Assembly (NCBI RefSeq): GCF_011046735.1
Contig: NZ_CP049258.1
Span: 7,086,001 to 7,150,000, forward strand
DNA from: Nordella sp. HKS 07
GTDB taxonomy: Bacteria; Pseudomonadota; Alphaproteobacteria; Rhizobiales; Aestuariivirgaceae
Reading direction: 5' to 3'
DNA length: 64,000 nucleotides
Numbering within the stretch: the stretch's first letter is position 1; the number at the start of each line of letters is the position of its first letter. The notes below the pieces were generated by a model that made no database searches, had not been told where the DNA came from, and was given only the letters and a program-made list of their open reading frames with translations. A program made the position numbers and the translations under genes. Positions 45,209-48,346 of this stretch are shown piece after piece.

Positions 45209-45325
45209 CTAGCGCGGGATGCGAAAAAGTGGGCACCGGTTTTTCGCGAGAATCCCGCGCTAACATATAAGAATCGATCACGTTTATGAGTTTGGATCGA
45301 TTCGATCCAAACTCATCGTTATCTA
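45209..45325. repeat. Repeat B, copy 2, cut off by the mobile element at its terminal CTA
   Basis: The first hairpin has arms AGCGCGGGAT/ATCCCGCGCT around GCGAAAAA...TTTTTCGC. The second has ATGAGTTTGGATCGA/TCGATCCAAACTCAT. The element ends ATCTA exactly where the transposon's inverted repeat begins; the final G of its CTAG end lies on the other side of the transposon, where repeat A continues. Confidence 0.85.
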
Positions 45326-46083
45326 GGGCGTGGACTCATAAGCGCGTAACCAAATGCGGATCGAAGCTAGCTTTATGAAGGCAAGATAGTTTGCTGCGAT
45401 CTTGTCATATCGGGTAGCGATCCGTCGGCACTGCTTGATCTTGTTGAAGAACCGCTCAACAATGTTGCGCGAGCGATAGAGGTAAGGGCTGAAGCAGATG
45501 GGGTCCCTGCGATTGCGCTTGGGCGGGATGTTGGCCCATGCGCCTTGCTCGCTAACGAGCGTCCTGATCCAGTCCGCATTATAGCCACGGTCTGCAAGCA
45601 CCATCGTCTTTGGAAGCAATCCGGCCAGAAGTACCGGGCAGAGCCTGTTGTCATGAGCCTCGCCCGGCGACAGCCCAACGCGCACCGGCAGACCATTGGC
45701 GTCCACTACCGCGTGCACCTTGCTGGTCAGTCCGCCGCGCGAACGGCCCATCTGCTGTTCTCGGTTCCCGGCAATGCAGGCTCCGTGCTGGTGCACCCGT
45801 ACAATGGATGTATCGATCATCTGCACCGCCTTATCGTGAGCGGTTGCCCGTGCTTCCATGATCCGGTCCCAAACCCCTGCACGGCGCCAACGGACAAAGC
45901 GGTTGTAGCAGGTCGTGCGAGGTCCATAGTTTTCCGGCAGATCACGCCAAGGCGCACCTGAGCGCAGGACCCAAAAGTACCGTTGAGGACACGCCGGTCG
46001 TTCACACGCCGCACGCCGCGCGGCTTATTCGGGAGCATCGGCTTGATCGCCGTCCATTCATAGTCACTGAGTTCATAGCGCAT
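45323..46083 (-). CDS. IS5-family (IS427-group) transposase, two overlapping frames
   Basis: The first frame starts at 46083 (MRYELSDYEWTAIKPMLPNK) and the second continues to 45323 with the DDE-type core: AVQMIDTSIVRVHQHGA, LTSKVHAVVDANGLPVRVGLSPGEAHD, TMVLADRGYNADWI, RNIVERFFNKIKQCRRIATRYDK. The switch falls at GGTACTTTTGGGTCC. Reading ACT TTT GGG in frame one and re-reading TTT TGG GTC after a -1 slip restores FWVLRSG-type sequence. This could be programmed frameshifting, as many IS427 relatives use, or a loss of one base. The joined protein is about 253 residues. Its stop codon TAG straddles the element end and the flanking target duplication. Upstream of the start, GATTC..CTCC...GGAG..GAATC can form a hairpin. 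Confidence 0.8.
45326..45346 (+). repeat. Left terminal inverted repeat of the nitrile hydratase element
   Basis: GGGCGTGGACTCATAAGCGC plus G. The transposase gene's last codons (YESTP) are encoded in it and its TAG stop is completed by the TA target duplication and neighbouring C/G. Confidence 0.85.
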
Positions 46084-46148
46084 GATTCGCAGCTCCAGTT
46101 TGGGAGCTTGAATCACGTCCGGGCCGATACTTTCAATGGCAAACCGGC

Positions 46149-46177
46149 ATGTCCGGAAGTATCCCCTAACCGGACAT
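46149..46177. promoter_or_regulatory. Hairpin between transposase and nitrile hydratase genes
   Basis: Perfect 8-base arms ATGTCCGG (46149-46156) and CCGGACAT (46170-46177) enclose 13 bases. The surrounding 310 bp (46084-46393) holds the divergent leaders of the two transcripts and no gene. It may be an operator or a transcript hairpin; there is no T tract to make it a terminator. Confidence 0.45.
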
Positions 46178-46393
46178 CTCAGAGACTCGGCAAAACCGAC
46201 GTGGATGACCCAAAGCGGGCATCTGTCCTGACATAATGCTGCCAATGCCGACCTATGAACCTGGGGGTGGAGGGCAGCTATCACGAGTGCCGATGACTAT
46301 ACCTCGTTTAAATGGTGAGATAAGGTGGGTGGGCACCAGTTTGTGGGTGGATCAGACGGCCGTAGCCATCCTGTAAATTTTCGGGGGTATGGA

Positions 46394-47020
46394 ATGTCGC
46401 AGCACGACGAGCACGAAGGCCACGGTTCAGAGCTGTCCGAAATGACACTTCGGGTCCGTGCATTGGAGACAATTCTCACCGAAAAAGGCTATGTCGATCC
46501 CTCGGTACTCGATTCGATCGTTGAGGCCTATGAGACGAAGATAGGCCCGCGCAACGGGGCAAAGGTAATAGCGCGAGCTTGGAACGATGCTGCATTTAAG
46601 CGATCCCTACTCGAAGACGCGACCAGAGCAGTGACGTCGTTTGGTCACGCTGGCCATGTCGGTGACCATCTTGTAGCTGTCGAGAATACCCCAAAGCTGC
46701 ACAACATGGTCGTGTGCACACTTTGCTCCTGCTATCCGACCGACTTTCTTGGTGTGTCGCCTGTTTGGTACAAGTCGGCTCCCTATCGATCTCGCGCGGT
46801 CAGAGATCCACGTGGAGTATTGGCCGATTTTGGAGTGAGTTTATCCTCTGACACAGAAATCCGGGTCTGGGATTCGACTGCTGAAACCCGTTTTATTGTT
46901 GTTCCCATGCGCCCCAGCGGGACAGACGGATGGGATGAAGAGAGATTGGCGGCTCTGGTGACGCGGGACTCTATGATCGGAACAGGCCTCCCGAAAAAGC
47001 CTGAGGACCTGGGCTCATGA
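46394..47020 (+). CDS. Nitrile hydratase alpha subunit, cobalt type
   Basis: The ATG at 46394 follows GGGGGT and gives 208 residues, the normal length; an in-frame start at 46325 would add 23 residues without family character. The metal claw VCTLCSC is at 107-113: Thr in the third position marks the non-corrin cobalt type, and the two inner Cys are those normally oxidised to sulphinic and sulphenic acid. It continues SCYPTDFLGVSPVWYKSAPYRSRAVRDPRGVL, which is typical except that the usual Trp after YP is Thr followed by Asp. The enzyme hydrates nitriles to amides in the cytoplasm as an alpha-beta dimer. It overlaps the beta gene by four bases. Confidence 0.9.
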   Translation: MSQHDEHEGHGSELSEMTLRVRALETILTEKGYVDPSVLDSIVEAYETKIGPRNGAKVIARAWNDAAFKRSLLEDATRAVTSFGHAGHVGDHLVAVENTPKLHNMVVCTLCSCYPTDFLGVSPVWYKSAPYRSRAVRDPRGVLADFGVSLSSDTEIRVWDSTAETRFIVVPMRPSGTDGWDEERLAALVTRDSMIGTGLPKKPEDLGS

Positions 47021-47676
47021 ATGGCGTTCACGACATGGGTGGAATGGATGGCTTCGGCAAGGTCGAACCGGAGGCCAATGAGCCCGCATTCCACACACCA
47101 TGGGAAGGCCGCGTCATTGCCATGATGCGCGCGATGGGGGCAACAGGAGCTTGGAATTTCGACATGTTTCGCGACGCCCGCGAACACCAGCCTGCCGCCT
47201 ACTACCTAACGGCTTCCTATTACAAGAGCTGGGAGAAGACCATCGAGACACTTCTGTTAGATCACGGACTGGTCACTGCCGAAGAGATCAAGTCTGGCCA
47301 CTCCCTGCATCCACCAAAGCCTTTGCATCGGCCTTCAGTCAAGCCACAAGACGTCCCCCAATGCCTCAAGCGCGCTTCCTATGGCAGGCCCGCACCAAAG
47401 GCAGCCTTATTCAAAATCGGTGACAAGGTTCGAACCAGAAATATTAATCCTGCAACCCACACGCGGTTGCCCCGTTACGCCCGTGATAAGGTGGGGACGA
47501 TCGAACGAATTCACGGATGTCACGTTTATCCGGATAGTTCGGCCCTCGGTCGCGGAGACGACCCACAATGGCTATACACGGTAGTTATTTCTGGCCGCGA
47601 GCTATGGGGAGCGGATGGAGACCCTGCCTTGAAGGTCTCTATCGAGGCATTTGAGCCCTATTTGGAGCCGGCATGA
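47017..47676 (+). CDS. Nitrile hydratase beta subunit
   Basis: This 219-residue protein opens MNGVHDMGGMDGFGKVEPE, the hallmark of beta subunits. It has FDMFRDAREHQPAAYYLTASYYKSWEKTIETLL in the N-terminal helical part and closes with the SH3-like barrel (FKIGDKVRTRNINPATHTRLPRYARDKVGTIERIHGCHVYPD, VISGRELWGADGD). It contributes two conserved Arg to the active site in known enzymes. The ATGA overlaps at both ends show translational coupling alpha-beta-activator. Confidence 0.9.
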   Translation: MNGVHDMGGMDGFGKVEPEANEPAFHTPWEGRVIAMMRAMGATGAWNFDMFRDAREHQPAAYYLTASYYKSWEKTIETLLLDHGLVTAEEIKSGHSLHPPKPLHRPSVKPQDVPQCLKRASYGRPAPKAALFKIGDKVRTRNINPATHTRLPRYARDKVGTIERIHGCHVYPDSSALGRGDDPQWLYTVVISGRELWGADGDPALKVSIEAFEPYLEPA

Positions 47677-48080
47677 GCCTGACAGAACCCAACCCGGTGC
47701 AGCTCCTCGCGAATGTGGGACCAAGCATTCCACGCGATGGGGACGGACCAGTATTCCGCGAGCCTTGGGAAGCGCAAGCCTTCGCCATCGCGCTTGCATT
47801 GGGCGAAAAAGGTGTGTTCAGCTGGAAGGAGTGGACAGCGACACTTGCCGAGGAGATCAACCGAGCGCAGGCTGCCGGGGATCCGGACACTGGCGAAACG
47901 TACTACCACCACTGGCTCGCGGCGTTAGAACGGATCGTAACGTCTAAAGGCATTACGACCGATGCGACGCTCAGGCATTATCACGATGCGTGGGATGCTG
48001 CTGCAGATAGAACTCCTCATGGCCAACCGATTGAATTGAGGCATGAGGATTTCGGACAACTAACTCCAAGCCTGCCATAG
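47673..48080 (+). CDS. Nitrile hydratase activator/accessory protein
   Basis: This 135-residue protein reads PVFREPWEAQAFAIALALGEKGVFSWKEWTATLAEEINRAQ, then GETYYHHWLAALERIVTSKG. This is the pattern of the small nitrile hydratase accessory proteins (p14K type) that resemble the N-terminal half of the beta subunit and insert cobalt by subunit swapping. It overlaps the beta gene by four bases. No amidase or cobalt transporter follows inside the element, so amide hydrolysis must depend on the host. Confidence 0.85.
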   Translation: MSLTEPNPVQLLANVGPSIPRDGDGPVFREPWEAQAFAIALALGEKGVFSWKEWTATLAEEINRAQAAGDPDTGETYYHHWLAALERIVTSKGITTDATLRHYHDAWDAAADRTPHGQPIELRHEDFGQLTPSLP

Positions 48081-48200
48081 GATCGTGTCAGCCCTTGACG
48101 ATGTTCAAGTCGGTTGTTGGCCCTTCTGCGACATGGCGACCGTTATTGATAATGGCTGCTTTCGTCTCGGGAGCAGACATTCGCCCATAGTCGAAGCATC

Positions 48201-48221
48201 CGCGTTTATGAGTTCACGCCC
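48201..48221 (-). repeat. Right terminal inverted repeat of the nitrile hydratase element
   Basis: Read inward on the minus strand it is GGGCGTGAACTCATAAACGC plus G, differing from the left end at two positions (both G to A). TA follows directly at 48222-48223. Confidence 0.85.
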
Positions 48222-48346
48222 TAGAGCGCTTCCCGCGAAAGTTGCTCGACTTTCGCGAGAAGGAAGCGCTCCAAATATATGTAATCGAGCCTTTTTATCC
48301 CGTTTTGATCGAATCTCTTGATTCGATCAAAATGGGAAAGGCTCTA
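48222..48346. repeat. Repeat A, copy 3
   Basis: This is a full two-hairpin copy beginning TAGAGCGCTTCC at the transposon boundary and ending GGCTCTA at 48346. The cupin gene on the minus strand takes its TAG stop codon from the last bases of the repeat. The first C of its usual CTAG start lies on the far side of the mobile element. Confidence 0.9.

Follow-up and report, generated by a model that had tools for sequence, protein, structure and literature searches.

The 2,896-bp segment at positions 45326-48221 of the window (the whole 64-kb stretch of DNA that was analysed, G000:C1:7086001-7150000) is best explained, with a probability of about 85%, as a passenger-carrying insertion sequence of the transporter IS (tIS) type, which belongs to an IS5/IS427-like lineage and carries nitrile hydratase genes as cargo. 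The extent of the element was determined from its inverted ends, from comparison with empty sites and from a paired-end scan, and it was the only full-length copy of the unit in that genome. The left terminal inverted repeat (45326-45346, forward strand) and the right one (48201-48221, reverse strand), the latter identified by inverted-repeat comparison with the left end, lie within the inverted pair 45322-45346/48201-48225. The two differences read from the sequence bear out the original prediction of a 2,896-bp unit with 21-bp inverted ends that match at 19 of 21 positions. TA flanks the element on both sides (45324-45325 and 48222-48223) within CTA...TAG, and the predicted TA duplication in a CTAG target held both in the sequence and in the empty CTAG of two other loci of the same genome, L130 and L131. 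The GC content was 0.566 for the element, 0.561 for the nitrile hydratase operon and 0.606 for the flanks.

The cargo lies between two arms. The left arm (45326-46222) comprises the end, the transposase and an upstream region ending near ATGACCCAAAGCGGGC; it was 87% identical to sequence in G029, after which the two diverged, and a similar break was seen in relatives. The right arm (48112-48221, about 110 bp) borders different sequence elsewhere in the family. No second transposase gene was found within the 2,896-bp unit, whose right side consists of this arm. A composite transposon was rejected because the unit has no second transposase and relatives have right arms of comparable length. The proposal of a passenger-gene insertion sequence was instead supported by the single transposase, the single pair of ends, exact insertion in CTAG (two paralogous empty sites) and relatives that are built alike.

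The nitrile hydratase cargo consists of three forward-strand genes, all of which are full-length and score above their equivalog cutoffs. They encode the alpha subunit, with the motif CTLCSC (46394-47020; TIGR01323, 291 bits vs. a cutoff of 249.85), the beta subunit (47017-47676; TIGR03888, 246 vs. 152.2 bits), and an accessory (activator) protein (47673-48080; TIGR03889, 99.6 vs. 46 bits). The alpha/beta and beta/accessory junctions are both ATGA overlaps, as had been claimed. The CTLCSC motif presumably marks a nitrile hydratase of the cobalt type. Operons of what we take to be this type have the same gene order and equivalog scores, whereas the operon studied here is enclosed by transposon ends. 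The cargo enzyme shared 65-69% identity in alpha and 47-51% in beta with the other nitrile hydratase of its own genome and with those of G001, G002, and G003, and the accessory protein reached up to 77% identity among the nitrile hydratase loci fetched (the best 80 of 453). Paired ends were absent from around those best 80 of 453 loci; the end pattern with up to two mismatches matched three of the 80, none of them paired, with 4.7 matches expected by chance. No near match to the nitrile hydratase unit was found in plasmids. The suggested search for the same unit at other sites thus gave no second copy in its own genome, in 69 genomes of the family, in plasmids or in the best 80 of 453 loci. 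Because a second nitrile hydratase unit was not found, a vehicle that spreads nitrile metabolism is something we infer, and this part of the original prediction was not borne out. A lone left-type end was observed in a Pseudolabrys MAG (L051:6063), where it lies some 0.7 kb outside a nitrile hydratase locus and points away from it.

The transposase is encoded on the reverse strand in two frames. The DDE frame (45323-45859) matched NF033580 (transpos_IS5_3) at 180 bits vs. a cutoff of 110, and the N-terminal frame (45817-46083; DUF4096/IS5, weak) scored 24 bits, which is below the cutoff when taken alone. The one IS5-type transposase expected at the left end is therefore there, though split. 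The split reflects one base missing near codon 36 relative to relatives; eight aligned relatives (L216, L217, L218, L219, L220, L222, L225, and L237) keep one frame across that place. A larger deletion lies near the same place in L224, and L221, L223, and L227 are broken elsewhere. Since eight relatives are single-frame and the transposase match of five ordinary copies (L234, L251, L264, L294, and L295) breaks near residues 102-112, not 36, programmed frameshifting is unlikely. It is possible that the missing base is an assembly error. As sequenced, the window copy is probably not autonomous. The earlier claim that one transposase now mobilises the operon was not borne out for this copy, whose transposase is frameshifted. 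In the window element (45323-45325) and in relatives, the transposase frame continues across the terminal repeat, and the CTA/TA of the target supplies its stop codon.

The element interrupts a dispersed palindromic repeat of about 240 bp with the CTAG target at its centre. Repeat comparison identified the left half (A) at 45209-45325 and the right half (B) at 48222-48346, and the repeat had many matches in G000, G001, and G003. At L130 and L131 the two halves meet directly at CTAG, and the unit therefore sits exactly in that CTAG, with TA duplicated. Five genomes of the genus, including its own, were searched for the site. The flanking LysR and cupin genes are 20 and 21 bp apart in G001 and G003, which leaves room for neither the repeat nor the unit; G002 has the cupin side only and G004 neither flank. 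The empty site that had been proposed as a check was thus recovered in two paralogous repeat copies, and the congeners G001 and G003 have neither unit nor repeat at this locus.

Related sequences were widespread. The unit was at least partly matched in 41 of the 69 family genomes searched. In G029, element positions 1-897 are present at 87% identity and give way to a Crp/Fnr-type gene; the final 105 bp or so of the element are found without the remainder in G011 and G029. A left-arm search of 397 genomes of the order gave matches in 105. When 13 left-arm copies were read onward, the copy in G117 proved to be an ordinary IS (839 bp) and the others had no right end in the next 330 bp or so; right ends were found downstream in stretches of up to 15 kb fetched beyond the left arms. 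An exact 18-base end pattern had 44 matches, spread over 15 of 20 chosen genomes, and the reversed pattern, used as a control, had none in any of the 20; across 389 genomes of the class, the exact pattern matched in 20 genomes and the control gave two matches. Three (L164, L231, and L182) of the 15 right ends read were not followed by TA, a count that omits L202, a transposase-side end, from the 16 listed.

The ends were also found in pairs. Of 18 transposase-anchored windows (174 kb in all), 11 contained an inverted, TA-type partner end with at most one mismatch, none a direct partner and none a match to the reversed pattern; the window element is one of the 11, and without it the count is 10 of 17. 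The 18 windows exclude L222, which meets contig ends, and L228 and L243, in which the left end was not found, and four of them (L246, L247, L259, and L260) came from end-pattern matches and not from the transposase search. A partner end at this threshold was absent from seven of the 18 (L216, L217, L226, L233, L246, L251, and L259). Pairs left uncounted were L259 (two mismatches, right TA absent), L244, L249, L254, and L245 (weak or without a transposase), and L240 (a transposase relic). A whole, single-frame transposase was seen in only four of the 11 paired elements (L218, L219, L220, and L225); that of L247 was nearly whole and the rest were broken or relics. A second, broken element (L228, G000:C1:5155929 to about 5157600) was observed in the genome of the window; it has a right end with TA, no left end that could be found, a transposase relic and a metallo-beta-lactamase-fold gene as cargo.

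Related elements have in common a left arm of about 0.9 kb with the transposase and often a right arm of about 0.1 kb, set around different cargo that ranges over cupin plus regulator, GH31, porin, GH17, Crp/Fnr, VOC, and other genes. Fourteen pairs of elements were compared. One (L218/L219) matched over its full length, seven matched at both ends only (L280/L224, L280/L285, L219/L284, L218/L284, L247/L281, L225/L240, and L223/L247, where one short internal match was also present) and in six the match was confined to the left arm (L280/L218, L280/L221, L224/L221, L221/L285, L284/L285, and window/L163, with L163, from G029, taken as a 1,200-bp piece). L280, on the Bradyrhizobium japonicum plasmid pS11L-1, carries Crp/Fnr and hypothetical genes, and L224, in G328, an outer-membrane protein gene; the two were 92% identical over the left 909 bp and 94% over the right 110 bp. 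When only the cargo was searched, on both strands, nothing matched for L280/L224, L280/L285, L219/L284, L218/L284, or L247/L281. In many elements the inner border of the left arm falls near ATGACCC..AGC and that of the right arm near TTGGCCC, but the right end of L221 deviates from this shared right arm.

Pfam domains in the cargo included a metallo-beta-lactamase fold (L228), cupin and Trans_reg_C/TPR (L218/L219), GH31 (L220), LysR, two SDR and GST (L221), OMP (L224), SBP (L247), PRISE/epimerase (L225), methyltransferase and amine-oxidase type (L240), ATC hydrolase (L227), RPE65 and TetR_C (L260), GntR/aminotransferase and DLH (L223), glyoxalase (L281), DUF1254 (L282), GH17 (L284), and Crp (L280). 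Other transposase genes were also observed inside cargo, IS66 in L283 and, on our reading, IS110-like in L221 and IS1595-like in L225, so that some long elements may be composite.

Evidence for movement together with cargo came from the pair L218 and L219. Both lie in G277, at about 2.52 and 3.01 Mb, with the same cargo and 84% identity over exactly the element. Joining the flanks of L219 over one TA yields an open gene of 126 codons, and the same gene is whole, at 126 codons, in G542, which alone among 146 genomes matched across the L219 empty-site junction at E 1e-20. The two sites and the whole gene in G542 indicate that cargo units of the lineage insert as units. For L247, a single-flank search of the 146 genomes for an empty site matched only L247 itself.

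A mechanism can be proposed from these comparisons. The transposase would recognise the two inverted ends of about 21 bp and insert the whole unit at TA within CTAG, with the nitrile hydratase genes between the left and right arms travelling as cargo; across the lineage, the arms tend to persist and the cargo varies between elements. The lower GC content of the element and the divergence of its enzyme from the other nitrile hydratase of the genus also favour this reading. Weighing against it are the broken transposases of this copy and of several relatives, the failure to find a second element with nitrile hydratase, the seven windows in which no partner end was seen at up to one mismatch, the six pairs that matched in the left arm alone, the deviating right end of L221 and the three right ends not followed by TA. 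The window copy would have arrived together with its cargo in one step, its transposase having acted in trans or before the frame was lost, and the cargo genes are presumably expressed.

The alternative that fares best is an origin in two steps, in which a short IS entered CTAG, the nitrile hydratase operon came in later between the transposase and the far end, and the unit never moved as a whole. The frameshifted transposase of the window copy, the failure to find a second nitrile hydratase unit and the different cargo that the arms carry in relatives all speak for it. Relatives nevertheless move with their cargo, at two sites in G277, one of which corresponds to a whole gene in G542, and no cargo-less member with both arms was seen among the elements examined. 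We regard the two-step origin as unlikely.

A remnant of a composite transposon is less probable still. Two IS would once have flanked the operon, the right one having decayed to its outer end, as the IS-like end on the right arm and the related relic in the same genome might suggest. Decay of an IS would, however, be expected to produce remnants that differ in length, and the right arms that recur in other genomes are all of similar size (about 110 bp); no IS5-type transposase match lay directly beside a right arm in the stretches fetched. Finally, a chance neighbourhood of an unrelated end-like sequence and an ordinary gene cluster, whose sole support is that no second nitrile hydratase unit turned up, can practically be dismissed, as it is contradicted by the exact empty sites at L130 and L131, by 11 inverted vs. 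no direct partner ends and by the reversed-pattern control of zero.

The passenger-carrying insertion sequence may be one product of a broader system. Tentatively, and with the odds somewhat against it, an IS5/IS427-like lineage of the Hyphomicrobiales may routinely exchange cargo at the fixed inner borders of two constant arms, forming a gene-capture and delivery system for metabolic genes whose capture step would be a process so far undescribed. The motif AGCGGACAT (at most one mismatch, forward strand, 14 elements) had a density per kb of 6.7 in left and 5.1 in right arms vs. 0.09 in transposase and in cargo, an enrichment that may be explained by shared descent of the arms. Bounding of the cargo by imperfect direct repeats was not supported: the end of the left arm and the start of the right arm gave a mean local score of 14.1 over 14 elements vs. 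15.4 (sd 3.3) for windows drawn at random from these elements.

The lineage extends to plasmids. The L219 transposase matched 152 plasmid records at E 1e-60, of which seven were inspected (B. japonicum, Bosea vestrisii, Ensifer adhaerens, two of Bradyrhizobium sp. 195, B. barranii, and Mesorhizobium japonicum). Five of the seven had a partner end with at most one mismatch (in L284 the mismatch falls in TA), L283 had one with two mismatches, and that of L285 was detected by profile only. All but L282 were on plasmids typed conjugative (six of seven). The units were annotated in the plasmid records as at most 'IS5 family transposase' and have therefore been overlooked. A transposase tree (27 of 29 sequences, L137 and L294 being left out as short) split the ordinary copies L234, L251, and L295 together with L286 from all others with a support of 0.949. 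L286 is apparently paired at 1,188 bp, and its transposase groups with the ordinary copies.

The window element's own group is presumably IS427, as defined in ISfinder. Its IS5-type DDE transposase (NF033580, 180 vs. 110 bits) and its TA duplication at CTAG agree with what we take to be the features of that group. In contrast, ordinary copies in G117 (L234 and L264) are 839 bp and carry no cargo, and the transposase match of the five ordinary copies breaks near residues 102-112 whereas the cargo-bearing L218 and L219 are single-frame. Literature searched on IS427 or IS5 elements with passenger or cargo genes, which covered few subscription journals, yielded no cargo-swapping lineage.

Insertion sequences with passenger genes are themselves a known kind, termed transporter IS (PMC7986276, PMC3129680). 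As described there, tIS have one transposase and one pair of ends enclosing genes unrelated to transposition (PMC7986276, PMC3129680), and the window unit likewise has a single transposase, one end pair, unrelated genes inside and a target duplication. The cargo unit occurs at more than one site for the relatives L218/L219, and the nitrile hydratase unit is present in one copy in its own genome. The lineage described here differs from tIS in that one transposase clade with similar arms is found around different cargo. Nitrile hydratase as tIS cargo was not found in the literature searched. A second comparison is offered by IS4-family elements of the Bacillus cereus group, which we take to be the IS231 subgroup. 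They carry extra DNA and putative passenger genes between the left end and the transposase (PMC2266710). Their modular passenger DNA sits, like the cargo here, between the transposase gene and its upstream end and includes metabolic genes (PMC2266710), but the transposase family and the hosts are different.

The element appears to be a simple means of transferring metabolic genes. If arms are retained and cargo is swapped, regulators and enzymes would have an unannotated route in IS-like elements a few kb long; the arm borders make the step of cargo capture testable. Such a route, if real, would link soil and root-nodule bacteria, including by way of plasmids typed conjugative.
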